A DNA stretch of 64,000 nucleotides from Bacteroidales bacterium (GTDB taxonomy: Bacteria > Bacteroidota > Bacteroidia > Bacteroidales > UBA932), in assembly GCA_017415715.1 (NCBI GenBank), contig JAFQFD010000001.1, forward strand, positions 1-64,000, in the 5' to 3' direction. The notes below the pieces were generated by a model. That model was not told the origin of the DNA. It did no database searches and was given only the letters and a program-made list of their open reading frames with translations. The translations under genes were made by a program, and so were the position numbers. Positions 1 to 14,395 of the stretch are shown piece by piece; positions within the stretch are counted from its first letter, which is position 1; each line of letters starts with the position of its first letter.

Positions 1-57
1 AATTGTATTTTGCCTTGACTTGGTAACATAACCCTTTGATTTACAAAGGTTAAGTTA

Positions 58-2840: not shown

Positions 2841-4040
2841 TCACAATACCGGTATTATATACTGGATTCCGAGCGAGATGCGCTGCGTATGAGGCTTATA
2901 GCCTCCTATCGCCAGCGCATTTTCTGTCAGATTGAAGCCCTTGTATACATAGTGCGCAAACACCTTGAAACCTTTTTCTTCGGTAAACGGGAACCATTCG
3001 ATACATCCCTGTGCATTCCATGCGGTCATGTACTGTCCCGCATTGAATATGCCATTATCCTCATATACGCCCGCCGTCTCATACGCTCCCTTTATATACG
3101 CATTCCATTTTGGAAGGAAACGATAGTCGACATTGGCTATGACAGTGAAATACTGAGTATGCTGGGCCGTCATGGGCTGATTTGATAGCGTTGTAATACG
3201 ATGCTGCGTATCAAGTCCGGAGCGCTGATACAGGACGTCCAGGTATGCCAGGACCGGCCCCTTTTCATATATGTTTCCGCACATCAGATAATAGATGTTC
3301 CTTCCCTTTGCGAGCTGTCCGGCTGATGCAGAATACTGAAGGTTGATCGCACCGTCAGCAAACCATCCCATCCAGCAGGCAGATGCAAGAAGAGGGAATT
3401 TTGTAGGCTCTACGCCATCTGGAAGACCGTGGATGTACATGTCATTGTCAGTTCCGCTTCTATGATTCACCACCTGGAGATACAGATGTTGAGTGGGGCT
3501 CAGATATACTGAGCCTTTCAACCCGGTCTGAAAAATCTCAAAGTTATTGTTGAATTCACTGAACTCTCTGACCAGCAGGCCATTGACATAACCTTCATAG
3601 CCTCCTACAGCAAGGAACTGCTTTCCTGCAACGAGGTCGAACCTGTCATTGACACGCCATTTGATGTTGGCATATTCGATTGAAGAAGCTATGTTCTCTA
3701 CTGAATAAGGATTGCTGTATCTGTTGAACGACTGACGGAAATGATAAGACAGATGATCCGTCAGTCTTCCATAAATCTCGAACCTGACACGATTCATCTT
3801 GAACGACATCTCGTCGAACTTTCCTGCTGTGAAATAGGCATTCGCAGACGAAGCGAACTCGAGATTGATATGGGACTTGATCTTCCTGATCTTATATCCG
3901 TCATTCTTCACAGAATCACGACGGTCGATGATCCTCTCTACAAGCGTATGAAGTTCCTCATCGGCAAGAAGGGTCTTAGGATTCTGCGCGTATGAGCAGA
4001 CGGTAAAAAAGATCGCCAGAGTAAAAAACAGTCTTTTCAT
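2841..4040 (-). CDS. Outer-membrane porin, OprO/OprP-like
   Basis: This 399-residue protein starts with a signal peptide (MKRLFFTLAIFFTVCSYAQ, cleavage near residue 19), followed by a short helical segment. The rest is a long stretch of alternating amphipathic strands rich in Tyr, Phe, Gly and Asn, ending in an aromatic and hydrophobic C terminus typical of beta-barrels. The pattern (FRQSFNRYSNPYS, VAGKQFLAVGGYEGYVNGLLVREFSEF) resembles the phosphate-selective porin O/P family, which Bacteroidetes often use for anion or general solute passage. The start at 4040 is preferred over an upstream in-frame ATG because the signal peptide begins there and the promoter lies just upstream. The substrate is unknown. 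Confidence 0.8.
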   Translation of the reverse strand: MKRLFFTLAIFFTVCSYAQNPKTLLADEELHTLVERIIDRRDSVKNDGYKIRKIKSHINLEFASSANAYFTAGKFDEMSFKMNRVRFEIYGRLTDHLSYHFRQSFNRYSNPYSVENIASSIEYANIKWRVNDRFDLVAGKQFLAVGGYEGYVNGLLVREFSEFNNNFEIFQTGLKGSVYLSPTQHLYLQVVNHRSGTDNDMYIHGLPDGVEPTKFPLLASACWMGWFADGAINLQYSASAGQLAKGRNIYYLMCGNIYEKGPVLAYLDVLYQRSGLDTQHRITTLSNQPMTAQHTQYFTVIANVDYRFLPKWNAYIKGAYETAGVYEDNGIFNAGQYMTAWNAQGCIEWFPFTEEKGFKVFAHYVYKGFNLTENALAIGGYKPHTQRISLGIQYIIPVL

Positions 4041-4058
4041 ATGATCCGGTTTAGACTG

Positions 4059-4090
4059 CAAAGATAAAAAGTTCCAAAAGATTACACAAA
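4059..4090 (-). promoter_or_regulatory. Porin promoter
   Basis: The minus strand carries TTTG (4087-4090), a 20-nt spacer and TATCTTTG (4059-4066), a textbook Bacteroidetes sigma-ABfr promoter. It lies 18 nt upstream of the porin start. Confidence 0.75.
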
Positions 4091-4289
4091 ATGACTCAAC
4101 AGATTGCTACATCAGGGGCAATATCGCTCATTTTCGTACTTGATGCCTTTCGTTTTGCAGGAATCTGGGACGAAAATGCTGAATAACGTCCCCGACATCC
4201 AGAAAACTCACACAACGATAAGGCAAAACTGCTCGCCACAAAAGATAACGCCATGATTGAAGAAAGAGCGAGCAAAGGACATGAAATAT

Positions 4290-4311
4290 TTTTGACAACA
4301 TTATGTCAAAA
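4290..4311. promoter_or_regulatory. Palindromic operator upstream of the WYL regulator
   Basis: The 330-nt gap between the porin and the WYL gene holds no convincing gene. It contains an 8-bp perfect inverted repeat, TTTTGACA and TGTCAAAA, six bases apart. It overlaps a TATTTTTG box, and TTGACA recurs near 4320 and TTTGACA near 4373. This looks like a binding site for a dimeric regulator, most simply the WYL protein encoded 80 nt downstream. The rest of the gap has no other structure that I can see. Confidence 0.5.
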
Positions 4312-4391
4312 GACACAAATTGACAAAGATATTTATCTAAACTATTCTTTTACTGGCGCATAATGCTTAAATTTGACAAAATCGCAACTAT

Positions 4392-5300
4392 ATGGAAGCC
4401 ACGAAAATTGAGCGTTTGCTCCGCCTGATAATGATGATGGCCGACAAGGTCGATTATACTATAGAAGACATTTCAGAAAAACTTGGCATCACACCCAGGT
4501 CAACATATCGTTATATTGAAACATTACGTACCTGCGGATTTGCTATTGACAAAAGAAAAGCAAATCTATATAAACTGGTAAAAATACCCAACAGCTCCAT
4601 CAATTTCAACAAGCTCATATATTTCACAGAAGAAGAAGCACATATAATAAACAATCTGATAAGCAGTCTTGACAACACAAACTCGTTAAAAACTGCATTA
4701 CAGAAAAAATTGTGTACGATTTACAGTCTCACCAACATGGCGGAACTGATTACTGACAAGGCAAGCGCGCATTGTATCGAATCATTAGGCAATGCCATAA
4801 GAACTAAAAGCAAAGTAATTCTTAAAAGATACGAATCCGGACATTCCAAATCAATCGCCGACCGACATATCGAACCCTTCGCTTTCACGACAAACTATAT
4901 TGATGTTTGGGCGTATGATCTGGATAAACGCGAAAACAGGATATTCAAGATTGCCAGAATCGGTGAAGTTGTCGTCCTTTCAGAATCTTGGGAATTTGAA
5001 AACATGCACCGCAAGACCGAAACAGACTGTTTCAGGATGAATGGCAGCGAACAGATTCCAATCAAGCTGGAACTGAGTATCAGGGCAAAGAATCTTCTGA
5101 TCGAAGAATACCCATTAGCCGAAAAAGAGATTGAACTCATAGATGGCAAATGGATTCTTGACACCAATGTGAGAAGCCTTGAGGGCGTAGGCAGATTCGT
5201 CATTGGTCTGGCAGGAGACATAAATGTCATAGACTCCCCTTCCCTGGAGGCGTACATTCAAAACTACATAGAAGAACATCTTAAGCGATATATCAAATAA
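4392..5300 (+). CDS. WYL-domain transcriptional regulator beside cas9
   Basis: This is a 302-residue protein with an N-terminal helix-turn-helix (about residues 20-55, DISEKLGITPRSTYRYIETL) and a central-to-C-terminal WYL-type ligand-sensing region. The WYL core lies near residues 135-200, around HIEPFAFTTNYIDVWAYD and a following strand. WYL proteins bind nucleic acid or nucleotide ligands and are repeatedly found beside CRISPR-Cas and other defence genes, usually as repressors. The gene converges on the tracrRNA: its stop codon overlaps the T-tract of the tracrRNA terminator. A palindrome about 80 nt upstream suggests autoregulation. Regulation of the cas operon is inferred from position only. 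Confidence 0.85.
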   Translation: MEATKIERLLRLIMMMADKVDYTIEDISEKLGITPRSTYRYIETLRTCGFAIDKRKANLYKLVKIPNSSINFNKLIYFTEEEAHIINNLISSLDNTNSLKTALQKKLCTIYSLTNMAELITDKASAHCIESLGNAIRTKSKVILKRYESGHSKSIADRHIEPFAFTTNYIDVWAYDLDKRENRIFKIARIGEVVVLSESWEFENMHRKTETDCFRMNGSEQIPIKLELSIRAKNLLIEEYPLAEKEIELIDGKWILDTNVRSLEGVGRFVIGLAGDINVIDSPSLEAYIQNYIEEHLKRYIK

Positions 5301-5380
5301 AAAACAGAAAGCGAGACCTTGCAGCCCCGCCTTAAATGTTTTCACAACGGAATAATCCTTATTGTGAATTGCTTCGAAAT
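5299..5380 (-). ncRNA. tracrRNA of the type II-C CRISPR-Cas9 system
   Basis: The minus strand from about 5380 begins with an anti-repeat (5361-5382) that matches the CRISPR repeat at 10800-10847 in reverse complement over about 22 nt, with one base deleted. Next comes a segment with the family feature TTCCGTTGTGAAAAC, then a GC-rich stem-loop (AAGGCGGGG pairing with TCTCGCTTT, including wobble pairs) and a run of six T. This is the usual build of Bacteroidetes II-C tracrRNAs: repeat duplex, nexus-like region and terminator hairpin. The transcript should be about 80 nt. It pairs with the crRNA repeat to guide RNase III processing and Cas9 loading. Confidence 0.88.
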
Positions 5381-5385
5381 TTCTG

Positions 5386-5416
5386 CAAATATAAACATTA
5401 CTATTGAAAATACAAG
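5386..5416 (-). promoter_or_regulatory. tracrRNA promoter
   Basis: The minus strand has CTTG (5413-5416), a 19-nt spacer and TATATTTG (5386-5393), which matches the Bacteroidetes consensus. Transcription should start about 6-8 nt further on, at the first base of the anti-repeat. The -33 element lies only 3 nt from the cas9 start codon, so tracrRNA initiation and the cas9 leader share the same DNA. Confidence 0.75.
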
Positions 5417-5419
5417 CAT

Positions 5420-8400
5420 ATGAAAAAGATATTAGGACTTGATCTGGGAACAGCATCGATCGGATGGGCACTCGTAAATGAAGCTGAAACAAAAGAAGAA
5501 AGTTCGTCAATTACCAAACTTGGCGTCAGAATAATTCACTACGACACCTTTACCAATGGTGAAGGGCAAGAGATCAAAGGCAGTGCAGCTGATGAATTCT
5601 GCAAAGGAAAATCCGTATCTCCCAATGCAGCAAGAACGAAATGCAGAAGCATGAGAAGAACTCTGCAGAGATATAAGCTCCGTAGAAAAGTGCTCATTGA
5701 ACTATTGACAAGAGAAGGCTGGATTTCAGAAAACGCTATCCTTAACGAGCATGGCAATCATACGACATTTGAAACCTTACGCCTGCGTTCTCTTGCGGCT
5801 ACGGAAAAAGTGACATTGCTAGAATTTGCCAGAATATTGCTCAACATCAATAAGAAAAGAGGATATAAAAGCAGTAGGAAAGCCAAAGGAAAAGAAGAAG
5901 GCAGCATTGTTGATGGGCTTTCTTTAGCAAAGGAGCTTTATGAGGAAGGGATCACTCCTGGAGAGTTCGTATACCGAAGAATGTTGACCGGTAAATATCA
6001 AGTTCCTGACTTTTACAGGTCAGATTTAAAGGGAGAACTTGACCGTATATGGGAAACACAGCATCAGTTTTATCCTGAGATTCTTTCTAAAGAATTAAAA
6101 GATTCCTTAAATGGGAAAAGTAAAGGACAAATATTTAAAATATGTCAGGCCCCATTCAGCATAGTAGGTATAAAGAGAGAATTCAAAGGCAAGGAACTAA
6201 AGACAGAAAACTATAAATGGAGAAGCGAAGCTGTACACCAGAAAATCGGGCTTGAACAACTTGCCGTAGTCCTGCAAGAAGTTTGTGACCATATCAAGAA
6301 TTCATCCGGATATCTTGGCGGAATCAGTGACAGAAGCAAAGAATTGTTCTTCGCAAACCTTACCGTAGGTCAGTGGCAATGGAAACAGATTGAATCAAAC
6401 CCTCACCATAGTCTTAAGAATCAAGTATTTTTCAGACAAGATTATATGGATGAGTTTGAAAGGATCTGGGAAACACAAGCAAACCATCATAAAGAACTGA
6501 CCGATGAATTAAAGAAAGAAATAAGAGACATCATCATATTCTATCAAAGGCCTTTACGAAGTCAGAAAGGTCTTGTAAGTTTATGCGAATTCGAGCACTG
6601 GACAAAGGAAGTCATTATAGAAGGTAAAACCAAACAGAAAACTTTCGGACTGAAAGTATGTCCAAAATCATCCCCTTTATTCCAGGAATTCAAAATATGG
6701 CAGATATTAAACAACATCAAGGTTAATGGAAATTACCTAGAACAAGAAGAGAAGGAAGCTTTATTTGCAGAATTGAATATAAAAGGGAAATTATCGGGCA
6801 CAGAATGTCTGAAGATTTTATATAAAAAACGCACGAAAGGATTAGAAATCAACTATAAAAACATTGAGGGCAATAATACCCAGGCATCGCTATTCGAGGC
6901 CTATTCAAAAATTCTGGAAATCAGCGGGCACGAATGCGATCTGTCCAAGATGTCCGGTCCAGATGCACTAGAACACGTTCGGAACATCTTCGAACATTTG
7001 GGCTATAAAACCGACTACCTGTATTTCGATTCATCATTGGACGGAAGCGACTTCGAATGTCAGCCGTCATATAGACTATGGCATTTGCTATATTCTTTTG
7101 AAGGGGACAAATCAATTTCCGGAAATGAATCGCTCGTAAATAAAATAGCCGAAATCACAGGTATGGATAATGACGCCGCAAAAATACTTGCCACTGTCAC
7201 TTTCGCACCGGACTATGGTAATCTCTCGACAAAAGCGATGCGTAAGATTTTACCTTACATGAGAGCAGGAAATGAATACAGTTTAGCTTGTGAATATGCC
7301 GGCTATAGACATTCAGCAAAATCTTTGACTAGGGAAGAATTAGCCGAGAAATCATATAAGGACAAGTTGGACTCTATTCCTAAAAACAGTTTAAGAAATC
7401 CTGTTGTTGAAAAGATTCTGAATCAGATGGTCAATGTCGTCAACGAAATAATAGCAACCTATGGCAAGCCTGACGGCATCAGAATAGAAATGGCCAGAGA
7501 GCTTAAGAAGAGCGCGAAAGAAAGGCATGAAATGTCTGAGGCAATCGGTAAGGCTTCTGCTGCACACGAGAGTATCAGGGAACTGTTGATTAAAGAATTC
7601 AACATACCAAATCCGTCGAGAAACGACATCATTCGCTATAAGTTATACCGCGAATTGGAGAAAAATGGCTACAAGACTCTTTATTCGGGTACATACATTC
7701 CACAGGAAAAATTGTTCAGCAAGGAGTTTGACATAGAACATATTATTCCACAGGCAAAATTGTTTGACGACTCGTTCTCAAACAAGACATTGGAAGCACG
7801 ACAGGTCAACATTGACAAATCAAACTCTACAGCGCTTGATTTCGTGACATTAAAGTATGGAGATGAATATGCAGAAAACTACATAGCTACAGTAGAAAAT
7901 CTCTGTGAAATCGGAAGCATCACCAAGGCCAAAAGAAATAAGCTGTTAATGAAAGAATCTGAAATACCGCAAGGTTTCATAGAAAGAGACCTCAGGGAGA
8001 CTCAATATATAGCAAAGCTTGCCAAAAACATGCTGGAAGAGGTCGTCAAGGATGTTGTAAGTACAAGCGGAGCAATCACAGACAGGCTTAGAGAGGACTG
8101 GCAGCTCGTTGATGTAATGAAGGAAATCAACTGGGCCAAATATGAAAAACTTGGTATGACCGAGATAACTACTGACAAGGATGGCAGAAGGATATATAAG
8201 ATAAAAGACTGGACAAAGAGGAACGATCATAGACATCATGCTGTCGATGCATTGGCAATAGCATTTACCAAACGATGCTATATCCAGTACCTCAACAATC
8301 TGAACGCACGCATTCCAAAAGGATTGGACGACACAGAATACATTGACCTGAGTGAGTATGAGCTGTATGACCTCCCAGTAGAAGAAAGGTCTGCTGTCGT

Positions 8401-9415
8401 GAGGTATATAGAAAGCAATATGATGTATCGAGACAACAGGCATAAATTGAGATTCTGTCCGCCTATGCCTCTTGAAAAATTCAGACAAGAAGCAAAGCGT
8501 CAGATTGAGAACATCCTGATATCCATTAAAGCAAAAGGCAAAGTTGTCACACGTAATGTAAACAAAACCAAGAAGAGAGACGGTTCTGGCCAGAAAGTGC
8601 AACTGACCCCAAGAGGACAACTGCACAATGATACGGTTTATGGAAAAATCACACATAAGGGCACAACCATATATACAAAACGAGAGGCCATCTCCCCTTC
8701 TCTGAAAATTGACAAAATTATTGACGAAGGCATAAGAAGGATTCTAAAGGCCAGGCTCACAGAATACAATGGTGATGCTCAAAAAGCATTCAGCAATCTT
8801 GACCAGCATCCAATCTGGTTGAATGAGGAGAAAGGGATTGCTATAAAGAGAGTTACAATTACCGGCAAAAGTACTGTGGTTCCGCTACACAACAAACGGG
8901 ACAATTCTGGAAATTTTATGGTGGACGATAACGGCAACCCTATTCCTACAGACTATGTCAGCACTGGAAGTAACCATCACATTGCGATATTTAAAGATGC
9001 TGATGGAAATCTCCAGGAACAAGTTGTGTCATTCTTCGATGCAGTAACAAGAGTCAATCTGGGAATGCCTGTAATAGACTACGGATATAGACATCAAGAT
9101 GGATGGACATTCTTATTCACTATGAAGCAGAACGAATATTTCGTTTTCCCAAATCCTGAAACCGGATTTGACCCTAACGAAATAGATTTGATGGATCCGA
9201 ACAACTATGCTATGATAAGTCCTAATTTGTTTAGGGTGCAGAAGATGACGACTAGAGATTATTTCTTTAGACATCATTTAGAAACCACTGTAAGCAATTC
9301 AAGCGAAAACCTAAGGAATATAACTTGGATAAGAATCAGAAACGCTAATGGATTAAATGGGATTGTTAAGGTAAGAATAAACCATATCGGAGAAATTGTC
9401 AAAGTCGGAGAGTAA
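5420..9415 (+). CDS. cas9: CRISPR-associated endonuclease Cas9, type II-C
   Basis: This 1331-residue RNA-guided DNA endonuclease cuts DNA matched by crRNA and tracrRNA. RuvC-I has D8 in GLDLGTASIGWA; an Arg-rich bridge helix lies at about 71-100. RuvC-II has E690 in IRIEMARE. The HNH motif is DIEHIIP with catalytic H774 and N797. RuvC-III has H940 and D943 in HHAVDA. The C-terminal 330 residues are the WED and PAM-interacting region. All catalytic residues are present, so both nuclease centres look active. The residue before the HNH histidine is Glu instead of the more usual Asp. The gene heads a cas9-cas1-cas2 operon without csn2 or cas4, which fits II-C. Base composition is clearly AT-richer than the housekeeping genes nearby. 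Confidence 0.97.
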   Translation: MKKILGLDLGTASIGWALVNEAETKEESSSITKLGVRIIHYDTFTNGEGQEIKGSAADEFCKGKSVSPNAARTKCRSMRRTLQRYKLRRKVLIELLTREGWISENAILNEHGNHTTFETLRLRSLAATEKVTLLEFARILLNINKKRGYKSSRKAKGKEEGSIVDGLSLAKELYEEGITPGEFVYRRMLTGKYQVPDFYRSDLKGELDRIWETQHQFYPEILSKELKDSLNGKSKGQIFKICQAPFSIVGIKREFKGKELKTENYKWRSEAVHQKIGLEQLAVVLQEVCDHIKNSSGYLGGISDRSKELFFANLTVGQWQWKQIESNPHHSLKNQVFFRQDYMDEFERIWETQANHHKELTDELKKEIRDIIIFYQRPLRSQKGLVSLCEFEHWTKEVIIEGKTKQKTFGLKVCPKSSPLFQEFKIWQILNNIKVNGNYLEQEEKEALFAELNIKGKLSGTECLKILYKKRTKGLEINYKNIEGNNTQASLFEAYSKILEISGHECDLSKMSGPDALEHVRNIFEHLGYKTDYLYFDSSLDGSDFECQPSYRLWHLLYSFEGDKSISGNESLVNKIAEITGMDNDAAKILATVTFAPDYGNLSTKAMRKILPYMRAGNEYSLACEYAGYRHSAKSLTREELAEKSYKDKLDSIPKNSLRNPVVEKILNQMVNVVNEIIATYGKPDGIRIEMARELKKSAKERHEMSEAIGKASAAHESIRELLIKEFNIPNPSRNDIIRYKLYRELEKNGYKTLYSGTYIPQEKLFSKEFDIEHIIPQAKLFDDSFSNKTLEARQVNIDKSNSTALDFVTLKYGDEYAENYIATVENLCEIGSITKAKRNKLLMKESEIPQGFIERDLRETQYIAKLAKNMLEEVVKDVVSTSGAITDRLREDWQLVDVMKEINWAKYEKLGMTEITTDKDGRRIYKIKDWTKRNDHRHHAVDALAIAFTKRCYIQYLNNLNARIPKGLDDTEYIDLSEYELYDLPVEERSAVVRYIESNMMYRDNRHKLRFCPPMPLEKFRQEAKRQIENILISIKAKGKVVTRNVNKTKKRDGSGQKVQLTPRGQLHNDTVYGKITHKGTTIYTKREAISPSLKIDKIIDEGIRRILKARLTEYNGDAQKAFSNLDQHPIWLNEEKGIAIKRVTITGKSTVVPLHNKRDNSGNFMVDDNGNPIPTDYVSTGSNHHIAIFKDADGNLQEQVVSFFDAVTRVNLGMPVIDYGYRHQDGWTFLFTMKQNEYFVFPNPETGFDPNEIDLMDPNNYAMISPNLFRVQKMTTRDYFFRHHLETTVSNSSENLRNITWIRIRNANGLNGIVKVRINHIGEIVKVGE

Positions 9416-9417
9416 TC

Positions 9418-10676
<1,259 letters not shown>

Positions 10677-10716
10677 AACTCAAATCAATAGAAGTCCAAA
10701 ACATGTTCATAAACGC

Positions 10717-10745
10717 AAAAAATCCAGTCATTGACTGGATTTTTT
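10717..10745. terminator. Bidirectional terminator after cas2
   Basis: A 14-bp inverted repeat (10717-10730 with 10732-10745) has A-tract and T-tract ends (AAAAAATCCAGTCA and its complement). It forms an intrinsic terminator on both strands, ending the cas operon from one side and any transcript reading through the CRISPR repeat from the other. Confidence 0.85.
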
Positions 10746-10799
10746 AATTTCTGATAACCACTTATAAATCTTTGAATTTCAACAACTTACCCAAAGTCT

Positions 10800-10847
10800 G
10801 TTGTTATCAGTCTGTCAAAGATAAAAATTTCGAAAGCAATTCACAAC
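10800..10847 (-). CRISPR. Solitary CRISPR repeat (array without spacers)
   Basis: On the minus strand these 48 nt begin GTTGTGAATTGCTTTCG, continue with an A/T-rich middle and end CTGATAACAAC. Length and sequence resemble the 46-48-nt repeats of Bacteroidetes type II-C arrays. The first 22 nt pair with the tracrRNA anti-repeat at 5361-5382, which fixes the identity and direction. No second copy with a 30-nt spacer is found on either side: a terminator lies on one side and hicB on the other. The terminal GTTG and the internal TATCTTTG, 20 nt apart, form a promoter inside the repeat, as in other II-C arrays. Confidence 0.82.
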
Positions 10848-10855
10848 ACGACTTG

Positions 10856-11254
10856 TTAAAGAGTAACCGAGCTAAGCTCTTCGCCAATACAATGAATTGC
10901 ATCGAGAATCTTCTTTACTGTCTTTTCTCCTGGGTATGCAACACCACTTTTATACTGCCTCATTTTACTTTCATTGATTCCTACATATTGAGCAAACTTT
11001 GATGCATTAATGAAATCGAATGCTGCAAAAAAAGATGGCATATCATATCTGAATGTAATTGTATATACGTCTACATCAAAACCTTCAGCACTGGCATAAA
11101 CCGAGGATTCCGCCACACTGACTTTAAAATCTTCTTTAGCCTCCTCAACCGTAGCTCCAAAACCACCAAAGAAATTACCAGCAAAATGTTGTTCCGAACG
11201 AACCGAATACATGCCGTCTGACCCTTTTTCAATTATTGCAGTAATATGATACAT
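10856..11254 (-). CDS. hicB: HicB-family antitoxin
   Basis: This 132-residue protein has an N-terminal HicB fold (MYHITAIIEKGSDGMYSV, then a segment around ATVEEAKEDF) and a C-terminal helix-turn-helix (ASKFAQYVGINESKMRQYKSG). HicB neutralises the HicA ribonuclease and represses the hicAB promoter through its DNA-binding domain. It is the second gene of the operon, 57 nt after hicA. Its stop codon is 8 nt from the solitary CRISPR repeat, on the same strand, so the mRNA should run into the repeat. Confidence 0.9.
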   Translation of the reverse strand: MYHITAIIEKGSDGMYSVRSEQHFAGNFFGGFGATVEEAKEDFKVSVAESSVYASAEGFDVDVYTITFRYDMPSFFAAFDFINASKFAQYVGINESKMRQYKSGVAYPGEKTVKKILDAIHCIGEELSSVTL

Positions 11255-11311
11255 AATCTAATGAATTTAAACAGTATATCCACATATATGGAATTCAAGA
11301 ATGGGCAGGGA

Positions 11312-11494
11312 CTAAATCCCTGCCTGTTTCTTGATGGCTAATAATGTTCCGGTTGGAATTTCTTGACCATCATGCCTCGGAACCACAAATTTGTTACCAG
11401 TGATCGGAGAAAACCACTTTTCATGTCGTCCACCTTGGCTCAACAGGTAACATCCATGCTTCCGAAGCAGTTTCTTGAATTCTGCTGTTCTCAT
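11312..11494 (-). CDS. hicA: HicA-family toxin (mRNA interferase)
   Basis: This 60-residue protein has the double-stranded RNA-binding-like HicA fold, with catalytic H24 in GGRHEKWFSP and the conserved tail VPRHDGQEIPTGTLLAIKKQAG. HicA cleaves mRNAs when free of HicB. It is the first gene of the pair, as is usual for hicAB. Its promoter overlaps a small inverted repeat. All hallmark residues are intact, so the toxin is probably active. Confidence 0.92.
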   Translation of the reverse strand: MRTAEFKKLLRKHGCYLLSQGGRHEKWFSPITGNKFVVPRHDGQEIPTGTLLAIKKQAGI

Positions 11495-11516
11495 ATTTCA
11501 TAGAACTTTCACAACA

Positions 11517-11547
11517 CAAAGGTAACATTTTCGTTACTATTATGCAA
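11517..11547 (-). promoter_or_regulatory. hicAB promoter with an overlapping operator
   Basis: The minus strand has TTG (11545-11547), a 20-nt spacer and TACCTTTG (11517-11524). An inverted repeat, GTAAC and GTTAC six bases apart (about 11522-11537), covers the -7 element and spacer. This is a likely HicB operator for autorepression. Confidence 0.65.
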
Positions 11548-11639
11548 CGATTTCTACAATTTTATGAGATATCCAATGAAGAATTTCATCAACATACGCA
11601 AAGCAGCAACATGTGCCATACATTAGCACATTAGTACCT

Positions 11640-11647
11640 TACCTTTG
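11640..11647 (+). promoter_or_regulatory. Promoter -7 element of the small membrane protein gene
   Basis: TACCTTTG matches TAnnTTTG and lies 28 nt before the start codon of the 35-residue open frame. No clear -33 element is seen. Confidence 0.45.
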
Positions 11648-11675
11648 CATCATAAACTTAAAACAGGAGGTAAAT

Positions 11676-11783
11676 ATGTGGCTCGCAGTTATTATTTCAG
11701 TTTGTCTTGCAGTTGAAGCACTCAGCTATATTTCTGGTGGCGAATTCAAGTTAAGCAAGAATGAGAAAGGGTCGGAGGCATAG
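11676..11783 (+). CDS. Small membrane protein of 35 residues, function unknown
   Basis: The frame begins MWLAVIISVCLAVEALSYIS and ends with the polar tail GGEFKLSKNEKGSEA. That gives one hydrophobic helix (residues 2-19) and a short, mostly charged tail. Three features support translation: AGGAGG ends 5 nt before the ATG, which is striking in a lineage that rarely uses Shine-Dalgarno sites; a TACCTTTG promoter box lies upstream; and a terminator hairpin overlaps the stop codon. I do not recognise the family. It converges on the GH53 gene with a 7-nt gap. Confidence 0.6.
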   Translation: MWLAVIISVCLAVEALSYISGGEFKLSKNEKGSEA

Positions 11784-11801
11784 CCGCAGGCTACTCCGAC
11801 C
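11770..11801. terminator. Hairpin shared by two convergent genes
   Basis: GGTCGGAG (11770-11777) pairs with CTCCGACC (11794-11801), and an inner TAGCC/GGCTA stem continues it with a 3-nt bulge. The hairpin spans the stop codons of both the small membrane protein gene and the GH53 gene. Confidence 0.6.
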
Positions 11802-12900
11802 AGTTCTTGAATGCATCCATGATCACAGTCGGATGTCCGTCCTCGGTGAAAGCGCCTAGCTTATACTGTGACGGGCGGCATTCCGGTTCCCAGTAGAAGA
11901 CACCTTTGCAGATCCCGTCTGTATTTTCGATGGACTCTCGGATTACACGTGCAAGCTGACGCCTGCTCTCTTCCATTACTTCAGGCTTTGATTCATCAAC
12001 AAGGAAGCCGGTTTCGACGATCATCACGTCACATCCGAACTTCTTGCCGACGTGCTTGATGTTCTCAATGCAATCTGTGATTGTGGTCTCTGCATCATCG
12101 CGGAATCCCCCATCCATGGCCCAATATGGATATAGTGACATTCCTATCATGTCCCACTTGGCTCCGCCTGCCTTGAGGACTCCGAGATTGAAGTCATACA
12201 GATTCTTGTCAAAACCATTGTCCAGATGTACCATCACTATGGCATCCGGGAATACAGACTTGCATGCATCATATCCTGCTGCAAAGAGGCCGGCATACTG
12301 CTCAGGGTTATTAACAACGTGTCCCATAGATTCTATGATCGTGGTATTGCCGTTCTCGTCAAGCTTCGGCCAGCCGTACTCATTTGACTCGACAGTCCAG
12401 AGGAAGCCATTGCGGGTCTCATTGCCGACCTGAATCCACTTCGGTGTTATGCCGTTTTCCTTTAGATAAGCAAGCACTTCTACAGTGTGAGCAGCAAGGT
12501 CTTCCTTCATCTGCTCATATGAATGACCACTCCATGCTGCAGGAATGTTCTGCTTCTGCGGGTCTGCCCACCAGTCGCTGTAATGGAAGTCGACCATTAT
12601 GGCCATGCCAAGAGCCTTTGCGCGCTGGCATTTCACCAGAAGGTCCTCCTTGCTGCACCAGTTGCCATGTGCAGAAGGGTCCACCCACACACGATGACGG
12701 ACCGCATTGAGCCCAAGGTCCTTCATGAGAGCCGTACATTCCATTTCTTCTCCAGCAGCATTGTAGAACTTATGGCCTTTAGCCTCATACTCAGTAATCC
12801 ATCCCAAGTCTGCTCCAAGCCAGAAATCAGGTTCGGACTTACATCCGGAAATAATAGATACAAAGACTGCCACAGCAGCAATGAGAGTAAATCTTTTCAT
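11791..12900 (-). CDS. Arabinogalactan endo-beta-1,4-galactanase, GH53 lipoprotein
   Basis: This 369-residue glycoside hydrolase cleaves beta-1,4-galactan side chains of pectin. A lipoprotein signal peptide ends in SIISGC (lipid-attachment C20), placing the enzyme on a membrane surface. The TIM-barrel has the acid/base E161 in QVGNETRNG and the nucleophile E296 in MIVETGF, as in GH53. It is the last gene of the glycine cleavage operon, starting 1 nt after the transporter stop. That is an odd partner, since no susC/susD genes are nearby. Family call is very safe; exact polysaccharide target is inferred. Confidence 0.93.
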   Translation of the reverse strand: MKRFTLIAAVAVFVSIISGCKSEPDFWLGADLGWITEYEAKGHKFYNAAGEEMECTALMKDLGLNAVRHRVWVDPSAHGNWCSKEDLLVKCQRAKALGMAIMVDFHYSDWWADPQKQNIPAAWSGHSYEQMKEDLAAHTVEVLAYLKENGITPKWIQVGNETRNGFLWTVESNEYGWPKLDENGNTTIIESMGHVVNNPEQYAGLFAAGYDACKSVFPDAIVMVHLDNGFDKNLYDFNLGVLKAGGAKWDMIGMSLYPYWAMDGGFRDDAETTITDCIENIKHVGKKFGCDVMIVETGFLVDESKPEVMEESRRQLARVIRESIENTDGICKGVFYWEPECRPSQYKLGAFTEDGHPTVIMDAFKNWSE

Positions 12901-12901
12901 A

Positions 12902-14395
12902 TCAAAATCCTGGTAAATCTATAAATAAAGTAGGAAGAAGAAGCAGGAAGCCCAGCACAACAAGCAGGAGAATGAATTTCCATATCCACTTCACCCATTT
13001 TTCATAAGGTATTTTCGCCACAGAAAGTACAGCCATGAGGACTCCAGAGCATGGAGTAATCATGTTTGTGAATCCGTCACCGAACTGGAACGCCAGCACC
13101 GTCGCCTGACGGGATACCCCTATCATATCTGAGAACGGAGCCATTATCGGCATCGTCACAGCAGCCTTTGCAGAGGCTGACGGAATGAACAGGTTGATGA
13201 AAGTCTGAATGCCATACATGGATCCAAGGGCGCCGACGCGGCCCGATCCTTCAAGAGCGGACGCCATTGAGGCAAGCATCGTGTCTATGACCTGTCCATT
13301 CTTCAGGATCACAATGATTCCTGCAGCAAATCCTATTATCAACGCTGCCGAGAATATGTCCTTGGCTCCCGCGATGAATTCTTTTGCGATCTTGTCTGCC
13401 GAATACCCCGCAGAGAAGCCCGCAGCGATGGCGAGCGCCATGAACAAGGCACATATTTCTGAAAGATACCATCCATAACCCATAGCGCCGACCACAAGGA
13501 ATACTATGGTGAACATCAGAAGGTTAAGGATATACATTCTGGCCGAATTCCTCAAGGCGAAAAAAGATGCTATGGCAAAGAGGCAAGTAAGCACCCACAT
13601 CAGCCATGGGGCTTCATACGAAGCCTGTCCGAGTTTTATCGCACACCCGTCCGCATAGAATATCGAGAAGAGGACAAGTACGACGCAAATCACACCATAG
13701 CATATCCAGGCATTGATCTTGCCCGACTCTTCAGAGGCTTCAACAGTCTCTTCTGACGCAACAGTCCCCGATACCGGCTTACGGATGCGTCTGGCGTACC
13801 ACAGGACAAAGGTTATGGCGACAGCCATCAATATCACCCAGCAGAAGATGCGATATTCTATTCCTGAGAACAGCGGCAGCGATGCCATGTCCTGAGCGAT
13901 ACCTATCGTGAAAGGATTCAGCATGGCGCCGGCAAAGCCGACATGCGCGGCGACATACACCATGCATACACCCACGAAATCATCATATCCAAGAGACCTG
14001 GCAAGCGGAATCACAACTGCAACGAAAGCAATCGTCTCTTCGCTCATTCCGAATACGGCTCCGAAGAGGCCGAACAGTAGCATAACGAGAGTGATCACAA
14101 TGTTCCCTACTCCCAGCTTGCGGACAAGTCCGAACCGTTCAAGACTCCGGACCTTGGAAATGAACTTCATGATCCCTTCATCAACAGCCTTAGTACTGTT
14201 TACAACCCAGAATGCTCCTCCGATGATCAGCACAAAGGCAATGATGCCGGCCTGCTGGCTGAATCCCTCATACAACGCGGAAAACACCTGCCAGGTCTGC
14301 GGCTCGCCACCCGGCACAAGCCAGGTAGCGACAGCGCATACCAGCAGAACCGCGAATATGATCACATATGTATTCGGAACTCTGATCTTACCCAT
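12902..14395 (-). CDS. YfcC/DcuC-family membrane transporter
   Basis: This protein of about 497 residues has roughly 12 hydrophobic segments. It begins MGKIRVPNTYVIIFAVLLV and then WLVPGG, the hallmark opening of the YfcC family (C4-dicarboxylate and arginine/ornithine-like carriers). The ATG at 14395 is preferred over a GTG four codons upstream. It overlaps the lpd 3' end by 8 nt, so translation is probably coupled. Being inside the glycine cleavage operon suggests transport of an amino acid or related product, but the substrate cannot be read from the sequence. Confidence 0.8.
   Translation of the reverse strand: MGKIRVPNTYVIIFAVLLVCAVATWLVPGGEPQTWQVFSALYEGFSQQAGIIAFVLIIGGAFWVVNSTKAVDEGIMKFISKVRSLERFGLVRKLGVGNIVITLVMLLFGLFGAVFGMSEETIAFVAVVIPLARSLGYDDFVGVCMVYVAAHVGFAGAMLNPFTIGIAQDMASLPLFSGIEYRIFCWVILMAVAITFVLWYARRIRKPVSGTVASEETVEASEESGKINAWICYGVICVVLVLFSIFYADGCAIKLGQASYEAPWLMWVLTCLFAIASFFALRNSARMYILNLLMFTIVFLVVGAMGYGWYLSEICALFMALAIAAGFSAGYSADKIAKEFIAGAKDIFSAALIIGFAAGIIVILKNGQVIDTMLASMASALEGSGRVGALGSMYGIQTFINLFIPSASAKAAVTMPIMAPFSDMIGVSRQATVLAFQFGDGFTNMITPCSGVLMAVLSVAKIPYEKWVKWIWKFILLLVVLGFLLLLPTLFIDLPGF

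Follow-up and report, generated by a model that had tools for sequence, protein, structure and literature searches.

A set of cas genes that stands beside a single CRISPR repeat raises the question of whether the spacers were lost in the cell, lost in the assembly or no longer needed. The question is posed by the window, a 64,000-nt stretch of DNA from a Bacteroidales bacterium, whose draft genome of 2.58 Mb in 56 contigs is 86% complete (14% estimated missing). A sequence-only reading had described a complete type II-C system with one repeat and no spacers, and had offered a collapsed array, an acquisition site or another job for tracrRNA and Cas9 as explanations. In our view the answer is probably an acquisition-ready II-C locus, the array of which has truly been reset to one intact leader-proximal repeat.

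The three cas genes lie on the plus strand. cas9 (5420..9415) encodes a type II-C protein of 1331 aa (TIGR01865, 1.5e-163), cas1 (9418..10335) a protein of 305 aa (TIGR03639, cas1_NMENI, 8.6e-92) and cas2 (10344..10676) a protein of 110 aa (TIGR01573, 2.1e-20; PADLOC Cas2_II, 1e-47). All three reading frames are open and each matches its own family. The Cas9 residues D8, E690, D771, H774, N788, H939, H940 and D943 are identical in 77 of 77 aligned sequences, the window's included, which bears out the claim that genes and catalytic residues are intact. In Cas1, E157, H215 and E231 were found by motif and are what we take to be the expected E, H and E positions. No match to csn2 was obtained among the six proteins of the island described below (five of six searched with NCBIfam, all six with Pfam and PADLOC), and in the same profile searches the only cas4 signal came from the Cas1 part of a Cas4-Cas1 fusion model matched by cas1. 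The locus thus has the type II-C signature gene cas9 with its RuvC and HNH residues, and type II cas1 and cas2 without csn2 or cas4. Judged by their sequences, the coding genes look functional. For the Cas1 of Riemerella anatipestifer, E149, H206 and E221 are reported as the active residues (PMC6008519). The best sequence match of Cas9 among solved Cas9 structures is CbCas9 (PDB 8iyq, 2e-67), and the best stretch covers residues 720-1287 of the query only.

Upstream of cas9 is a gene for a transcriptional regulator of the WYL/HTH_11 type (4392..5300, plus strand; PADLOC WYL, 6.2e-16; Pfam HTH_11, 1.6e-6). A homologue with 62-63% protein identity is found upstream of cas9 in the relatives L031 and L033. 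WYL-type regulators are linked to II-C cas operons in this upstream position in the window's group, and directly 3' of cas2 in three genomes of another genus (L257-L259), where the matches that adjoin cas2 are 42-47% identical and, in L257, split in two pieces.

A tracrRNA is predicted on the minus strand at 5297..5384, with an anti-repeat (about 5360-5384), a hairpin and a terminator-like hairpin with a T-run (fold of -26.6 kcal/mol); its ends are estimates made from the sequence. TATATTTG (5386..5393, minus strand), read directly from the sequence, is a Bacteroidetes -7 promoter motif that would serve it. In the passage that names this motif, its consensus is given as TAnnTTTG (PMC10309648). 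Rfam gave no match, up to E = 1, for the tracrRNA or elsewhere in 3500-13000. The computed duplex between the 5' part of the tracrRNA and the repeat reaches -28.8 kcal/mol, whereas 300 shuffles averaged -7.6 and went no lower than -17.9; the pairing that had been claimed for the two is therefore upheld, and with it a further mark of type II-C, a tracrRNA with an anti-repeat to the repeat.

The repeat (10800..10847, crRNA strand minus) is 48 nt long and stands exactly where it had been noticed; it differs by 1-2 nt from the array repeats of the two closest relatives and is the sole copy found in the 56 contigs. A repeat search between 9.5 and 12.5 kb gave no second copy. Over the whole assembly, its 16-nt 5' part, at up to two mismatches, matches its own site and one other place with two mismatches, which we judged to be chance; its 23-nt 3' part, at up to three mismatches, matches its own site alone. 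No second array with the same repeat was found in the 86%-complete assembly. The exact 48-mer had no match in the genome collection, from which own-genome records were possibly excluded, and 0 matches in viral contigs. An array has at least two repeats and spacers, and here one copy is present in the window and in its assembly. We file the locus as a II-C cas locus with an empty array and not as a complete system; to call it complete would go too far, since a normal guide requires a spacer and the assembly has none.

Between cas2 and the repeat lie 123 nt (10677..10799, no strand assigned) that have the placement, similar length and T-run layout of the relatives' leaders. The first repeat lies 100-150 nt past cas2 in 40 of 57 relatives' loci. 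The leader contains a terminator-like hairpin (10717..10745, no strand assigned), a perfect 14-nt inverted repeat scored on the plus strand, and the flanking A-run and T-run suggest that it may work in both directions. Within the repeat, TATCTTTG (10816..10823, minus strand) is a Bacteroidetes promoter motif of the form TAnnTTTG directed towards cas2; this motif is present in 49 of 57 consensus repeats of relatives, compared with 1.3% of shuffled ones. The repeat promoter would yield just a short leader RNA ending at the hairpin. With this promoter facing the leader terminator, and with no spacer on the 5' side of the repeat as a crRNA requires, no normal guide should be made at present. The one exception seen would be transcription of the neighbouring hicAB pair, with the tail of hicB in guide position. 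We infer a memory-less state, in which the enzymes and the tracrRNA are present and spacers are not.

The closest loci, L033 and L031, come from Bacteroidales MAGs of goat and water deer and are among the 80 loci kept of 240 found; their Cas9 proteins are 68.9% and 67.1% identical to that of the window. They have the same regulator upstream, but they carry eight and five repeats whereas the window carries one. Comparison of the same locus in relatives, as had been advised, thus yielded arrays, with repeats that differ from the window's by 1 nt (L033) and 2 nt (L031). Both arrays stand at the same place after cas2 as the window's repeat, and run into contig ends.

The single-repeat state was looked for in two samples that overlap, several contigs having identical lengths in both. 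The first comprised 80 loci kept of 240 found, together with G053 and G090. Among these 82 loci, 76 have cas2 (six without it were excluded) and 50 have at least 1000 nt after it (26 with less were excluded); L077 is masked, which leaves 49 assessable loci. All 49 have three or more repeats, and the single-repeat state occurs in none. The second sample was drawn from cas2 found in 59 of 398 and 154 of 393 genomes (best 30 places each, partly the same). Its 57 loci were reduced to 45 by excluding the window's own copy (L200) and 11 loci with less than 800 nt after cas2. An array was present within 1.5 kb in 39 of the 45, of which 38 were counted by script (at least two repeats) and L254 was added by eye for its evenly spaced motif copies (k-mer test of 0). 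The single-repeat state was recognised in none; in the other six, which have no array within 1.5 kb, a lone repeat of unfamiliar sequence would have escaped notice. The shortest arrays are those of L253, which has two repeats, and L248, where an intact repeat is accompanied by a truncated one. In G246 cas2 is followed by a leader and a single intact repeat, and a degenerate repeat lies about 490 nt further along; the contig begins inside cas2, and cas9 was not found in the assembly. On these counts the single-repeat state appears to be rare. Relative to cas2, the arrays of L046, L087, L102 and L036 have the strand orientation opposite to that of the other loci. In G196 (L188; G196:C11:651-3509) a cas9 match with one TAG stop inside stands beside a seven-repeat array.

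Cas loci without any array are also met among relatives. L257-L260 and L262 have cas1-cas2 and no array within the fetched stretches, and L259, L260 and L262, three of these five, have a cas9 of a distant clade; the cas locus on C11 of G191 likewise has no array within the fetched stretch. Array finders require at least two repeats. In a survey of type II cas loci, 22% were isolated from CRISPRs, 109 of 477 being without a nearby CRISPR in its Table 1 (PMC5294841). The window's locus resembles these in having cas genes without an array, but it keeps the leader and one intact repeat. It is a rare form of a known state and does not look like a new kind of system.

The main rival to a true reset is a fault of assembly: the genome would hold a real multi-spacer array, perhaps variable among strains, and the assembler would have skipped the spacers between identical repeats. 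We regard this as rather unlikely, though it is well ahead of the other alternatives considered below. The assembly is a draft, probably metagenomic, in 56 contigs, and arrays are hard for such assemblies, as 24 of 57 relatives' arrays end within 100 nt of a contig end and both closest relatives break inside the array. Strain variation of such arrays is also reported, in the part of the work that concerns it, for II-C of Bacteroides fragilis (PMC9367070). However, assemblies of relatives usually fail by breaking the contig at the array and not by reading through it with one repeat left. Such a single repeat was absent from all 49 first-sample loci and from all 39 array-bearing loci of the overlapping second sample, though L248 and G246 come close. 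The same rarity speaks against a true reset, which was seen in none of 49 and none of 45 loci of these overlapping samples, six of the 45 being able to hide a single copy, and the 56-contig, 86%-complete draft is a second point against it.

The surroundings of the locus limit what an assembly fault could have removed. The whole II-C locus lies in an AT-rich genomic island (4042..11611, no strand assigned), delimited by alignment with sister genomes. Its order is WYL-type regulator, tracrRNA, cas9, cas1, cas2, leader, single 48-nt repeat and a hicA/hicB-like pair; the cas genes are on the plus strand, and the tracrRNA, the hicB-like gene and hicA on the minus strand. GC is 39.6% in the island and 47.4% and 49.7% in the flanks. 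The sister genomes G026 and G066 match the window through 4041 and resume at 11612, with 11 nt between, and the identities of the flanking stretches are 82-91% and 91-95%. The left edge is uncertain by about 30 nt because of a porin promoter. Island and empty site are colinear, which counts against collapse. Since both island edges meet one empty site, the contig is no misjoin of two loci at the repeat, and therefore only array-internal material could be missing.

A cas9 match is absent from both G026 (84% complete) and G066 (71% complete), and 9 of 101 genus genomes, its own included, contain a cas9-like match when matches of every strength are counted. The site is variable, as other genes occupy it in G032. 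The simplest reading of these alignments is that the island was gained in the window's lineage, the alternative being loss in both sisters, and it was probably acquired horizontally. Low GC and absence at the site in two sister genomes indicate that it may be a recent arrival. This weakens the argument that intact genes imply continued selection, which had been put forward for the locus; dN is 0.25-0.30 and dS is saturated (returned as -1), so that no dN/dS ratio results.

Two further repeat-like sequences at the island's ends were considered and rejected. At the left edge, 4049-4090 resembles the repeat in direct orientation with a score of 45, second in the window to that of the actual repeat and above the maxima of 27-36 given by 20 shuffled repeats. 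The half that bears the signal resembles a porin promoter, a similar one being present in G032. Taken by itself, the other half scores 17, which is less than the best background in the window (20-23), although the score over the full length remains out of the ordinary. A direct-orientation match of at least 40 upstream of cas9 was found in 6 of 52 relatives with usable sequence and in 0 of 52 with shuffled repeats, and three of the six lie within about 120 nt of cas9. We did not accept 4049-4090 as a second, island-bounding repeat. A degenerate repeat at the hicA end was also dismissed, its score of 24 being reached by 48 of 300 shuffles.

Which end of an array the lone repeat represents can be judged from complete arrays of relatives. 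The last repeat is degenerate in 20 of 32. In these repeats 166 mismatches fall in the far half, the part that would pair with the tracrRNA, versus 31 in the near half, 14 of them at the first base; the near part is for the most part preserved, as is the middle, where the promoter motif lies. This damage fits arrays that are transcribed from inside the repeats in the direction of cas2. Repeat-borne promoters directed to the leader have been proposed for Flavobacterium (PMC8092290, PMC10309648). Because degeneracy sits at the far end of arrays, and because acquisition in CRISPR1 of R. anatipestifer, a II-C system, is placed at the leader end by the part of the study that treats it (PMC6008519), the lone repeat of the window lies at the acquisition end. 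No part of it is damaged, not even the half that generally degenerates in the repeat at the far end. A collapsed array and an acquisition site, which had been listed separately, would then in effect be one reading, with the repeat at a conserved leader like the one described there.

In the other 12 of the 32 arrays the last detected repeat has at most two mismatches, and a more degenerate copy beyond could be missed; in one of them, L072, it is a stray copy 1.1 kb on. This bears on both main explanations. An assembly collapse onto the right flank and a true loss by recombination would both require that the last repeat be intact, and at most 12 of the 32 complete arrays would qualify. With this reservation, the evidence points to a true reset: the repeat, its pairing with the tracrRNA and the catalytic residues appear intact, relatives' repeats that differ by 1-2 nt form arrays at the same place after cas2, an inverted motif in the leader still fits the window's own repeat over 8 nt, and very short arrays occur in relatives (L248, L253, G246). 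Earlier spacers would have gone, the simplest route being recombination of the first repeat with an intact last one, and what remains, the leader with one repeat, may still serve Cas1-Cas2 as the place for a first new spacer.

Known II-C systems of Bacteroidota offer a comparison, as far as the portions drawn on here describe them. R. anatipestifer CRISPR1 likewise has cas9, cas1 and cas2 beside the array and the tracrRNA upstream of cas9, and its strain RA-CH-2 has 16 repeats and 15 spacers (PMC5006608, PMC6008519). Its repeats are 47 nt long and its leader, from cas2 to the first repeat, is 107 bp, versus 48 nt and 123 nt in the window. Its authors describe finding no promoter in the repeat (PMC5006608), whereas the window's repeat has TAnnTTTG. 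In Flavobacterium columnare the array is thought to be transcribed from within the repeats towards the leader, as proposed here; it has, however, 36-nt repeats in a filled array, and a toxin-antitoxin pair, ParDE, between cas9 and the array, whereas in the window hicAB lies beyond a single repeat (PMC8092290).

The hicAB pair matters for the third explanation, that tracrRNA and Cas9 have another job. hicA (11312..11494, minus strand) encodes the toxin of a toxin-antitoxin pair (Pfam HicA_toxin, 2.2e-17). The neighbouring gene (10856..11254, minus strand) is an open reading frame with its stop codon 8 nt from the repeat; it had no significant Pfam match, and we presume it to be hicB-like from its place beside hicA. 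It has tblastn matches (E of at most 0.001) in 80 of 151 genus genomes, its own included. hicAB was rejected as a conserved partner, since a hicB homologue is present in 1 of 82 cas9 loci of the first sample, L062, where it lies about 2.4 kb beyond the array. G196 has hicAB beside its array in another orientation than the window; the pair there is closely similar and lies between the last array repeat and a degenerate repeat.

tracr-L is the model for a tracrRNA and Cas9 that act as a regulator. A use of this kind, with the array dispensable, would accord with the intact genes, with the WYL regulator linked to the locus in the window and in relatives, and with the cas1-cas2 operons that lack an array in the fetched stretches (L257-L260, L262), the Cas9s seen there being of a distant clade. 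We nevertheless consider it improbable. Leader and repeat have both stayed intact, and the repeat retains the half that most terminal repeats have lost; inspection of the tracrRNA by eye revealed no natural single guide. The hicB-tail guide has only its own match within three mismatches in its own genome, near matches to its last 12 nt in the window are at chance level, and the tail has no exact match in viral contigs. Repurposing of Cas9 and tracrRNA thus finds no positive support. Of the sequence-only reading, the intact II-C genes, the tracrRNA and the single repeat are supported; the other job is not, the hicB tail having given no other match in these searches and hicAB being no conserved neighbour.

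A narrower version, to which we give very little credence, is that the lone repeat has a function in the 3' UTR of the hicAB mRNA and that the level of Cas9 and tracrRNA sets toxin-antitoxin output. No terminator was scored between hicB and the repeat, so hicAB transcripts should reach it. Beyond the hicB stop the transcript would continue for 8 nt and enter the repeat in crRNA sense; the toxin-antitoxin message would be cleaved by the joint action of tracrRNA, host RNase III and Cas9, and one 'crRNA' with the hicB tail as guide would be loaded until the first real spacer arrives. CreTA-type elements are CRISPR-regulated toxin-antitoxins in which the guide of an ectopic repeat represses the toxin gene, according to the part of the source that defines them (PMC9458426). 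The window's locus does not fit this definition: the sole repeat stands beside the leader, 3' of hicB, and the would-be guide is the hicB tail, which matches no second place in its own genome at up to three mismatches; a HicB-like protein partner is present. Nor does the repeat resemble viral solitary repeat units or Racr, described in the relevant part of PMC10651486 as a lone repeat in a viral genome and not beside cas genes; it is 123 nt from cas2 and beside a leader.

Lone repeats do occur elsewhere. Intact solo repeats lie just 5' of hicAB at 9126 in L174 (G317) and 9628 in L176 (G236), with no cas9 match. In L175 (G287) a degenerate repeat, a 30-nt spacer-like stretch and an intact repeat were seen by eye, about 100 nt upstream of the repeat, and by eye this genome without a cas9 match appears to carry an orphan mini-array. 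L178 (G052), a 98%-complete genome without a cas9 match, has two repeat-like copies 860 nt apart (9332 and 10192). The window's repeat might accordingly be a decaying scar, like the solo or near-solo repeats kept in G317, G236, G287, G361 and G052, genomes 81-98% complete that have no cas9 match. We think this most unlikely, as in the window the cas genes, the tracrRNA and the leader are all intact.

The inverted motif in the leader is a more general feature. CTGATAAC (10751..10758, plus strand) is an inverted copy of repeat bases 10803-10810, an 8-nt match to the window's own repeat. In 57 loci, the window included (L111 excluded for too short a leader; relatedness among loci not controlled), there is a tendency for the leader, of which 73 nt were tested, to contain in inverted form the cas2-proximal end of the first repeat of the same locus. 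The RNA duplex of own leader and repeat averages -10.47 kcal/mol versus -6.61 when permuted, the lowest of 2000 permutations being -7.64. The longest exact inverted match averages 6.91 nt in the 57 loci versus 5.22 nt (highest permutation 5.72). Neither the middle nor the last third of the repeat exceeded the highest permutation, nor did any third in direct orientation. The feature is not universal: the own leader is among the three best partners in 24 of 57 loci, and in L031 the inverted copy is interrupted. Scored without gaps, 9 of 13 positions or more match in 32 of 57 loci (20 swaps gave a mean of 10 and a maximum of 18 loci). The offsets of these 32 fall mainly in two classes, 15 at 36 or 38 and 11 at 56-63, which are about 20 nt or two helical turns apart. 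The motif could act as DNA, being a site that the integrase recognises, or as RNA, forming a hairpin that closes the leader transcript; both are possible. A non-exhaustive literature search found no prior report of it.

In conclusion, if its structure is confirmed at the level of reads, the locus would be a natural 'blank' II-C system with enzymes, tracrRNA and acquisition site. It would then be a starting point for testing whether a leader and one repeat suffice for uptake of a first spacer in II-C, and how Cas9 behaves without guides. The locus suggests as well that cas loci classed as 'arrayless' in surveys may have an intact leader-repeat unit that array finders leave unreported. The inverted leader motif seen across these II-C relatives may matter more than the single repeat.
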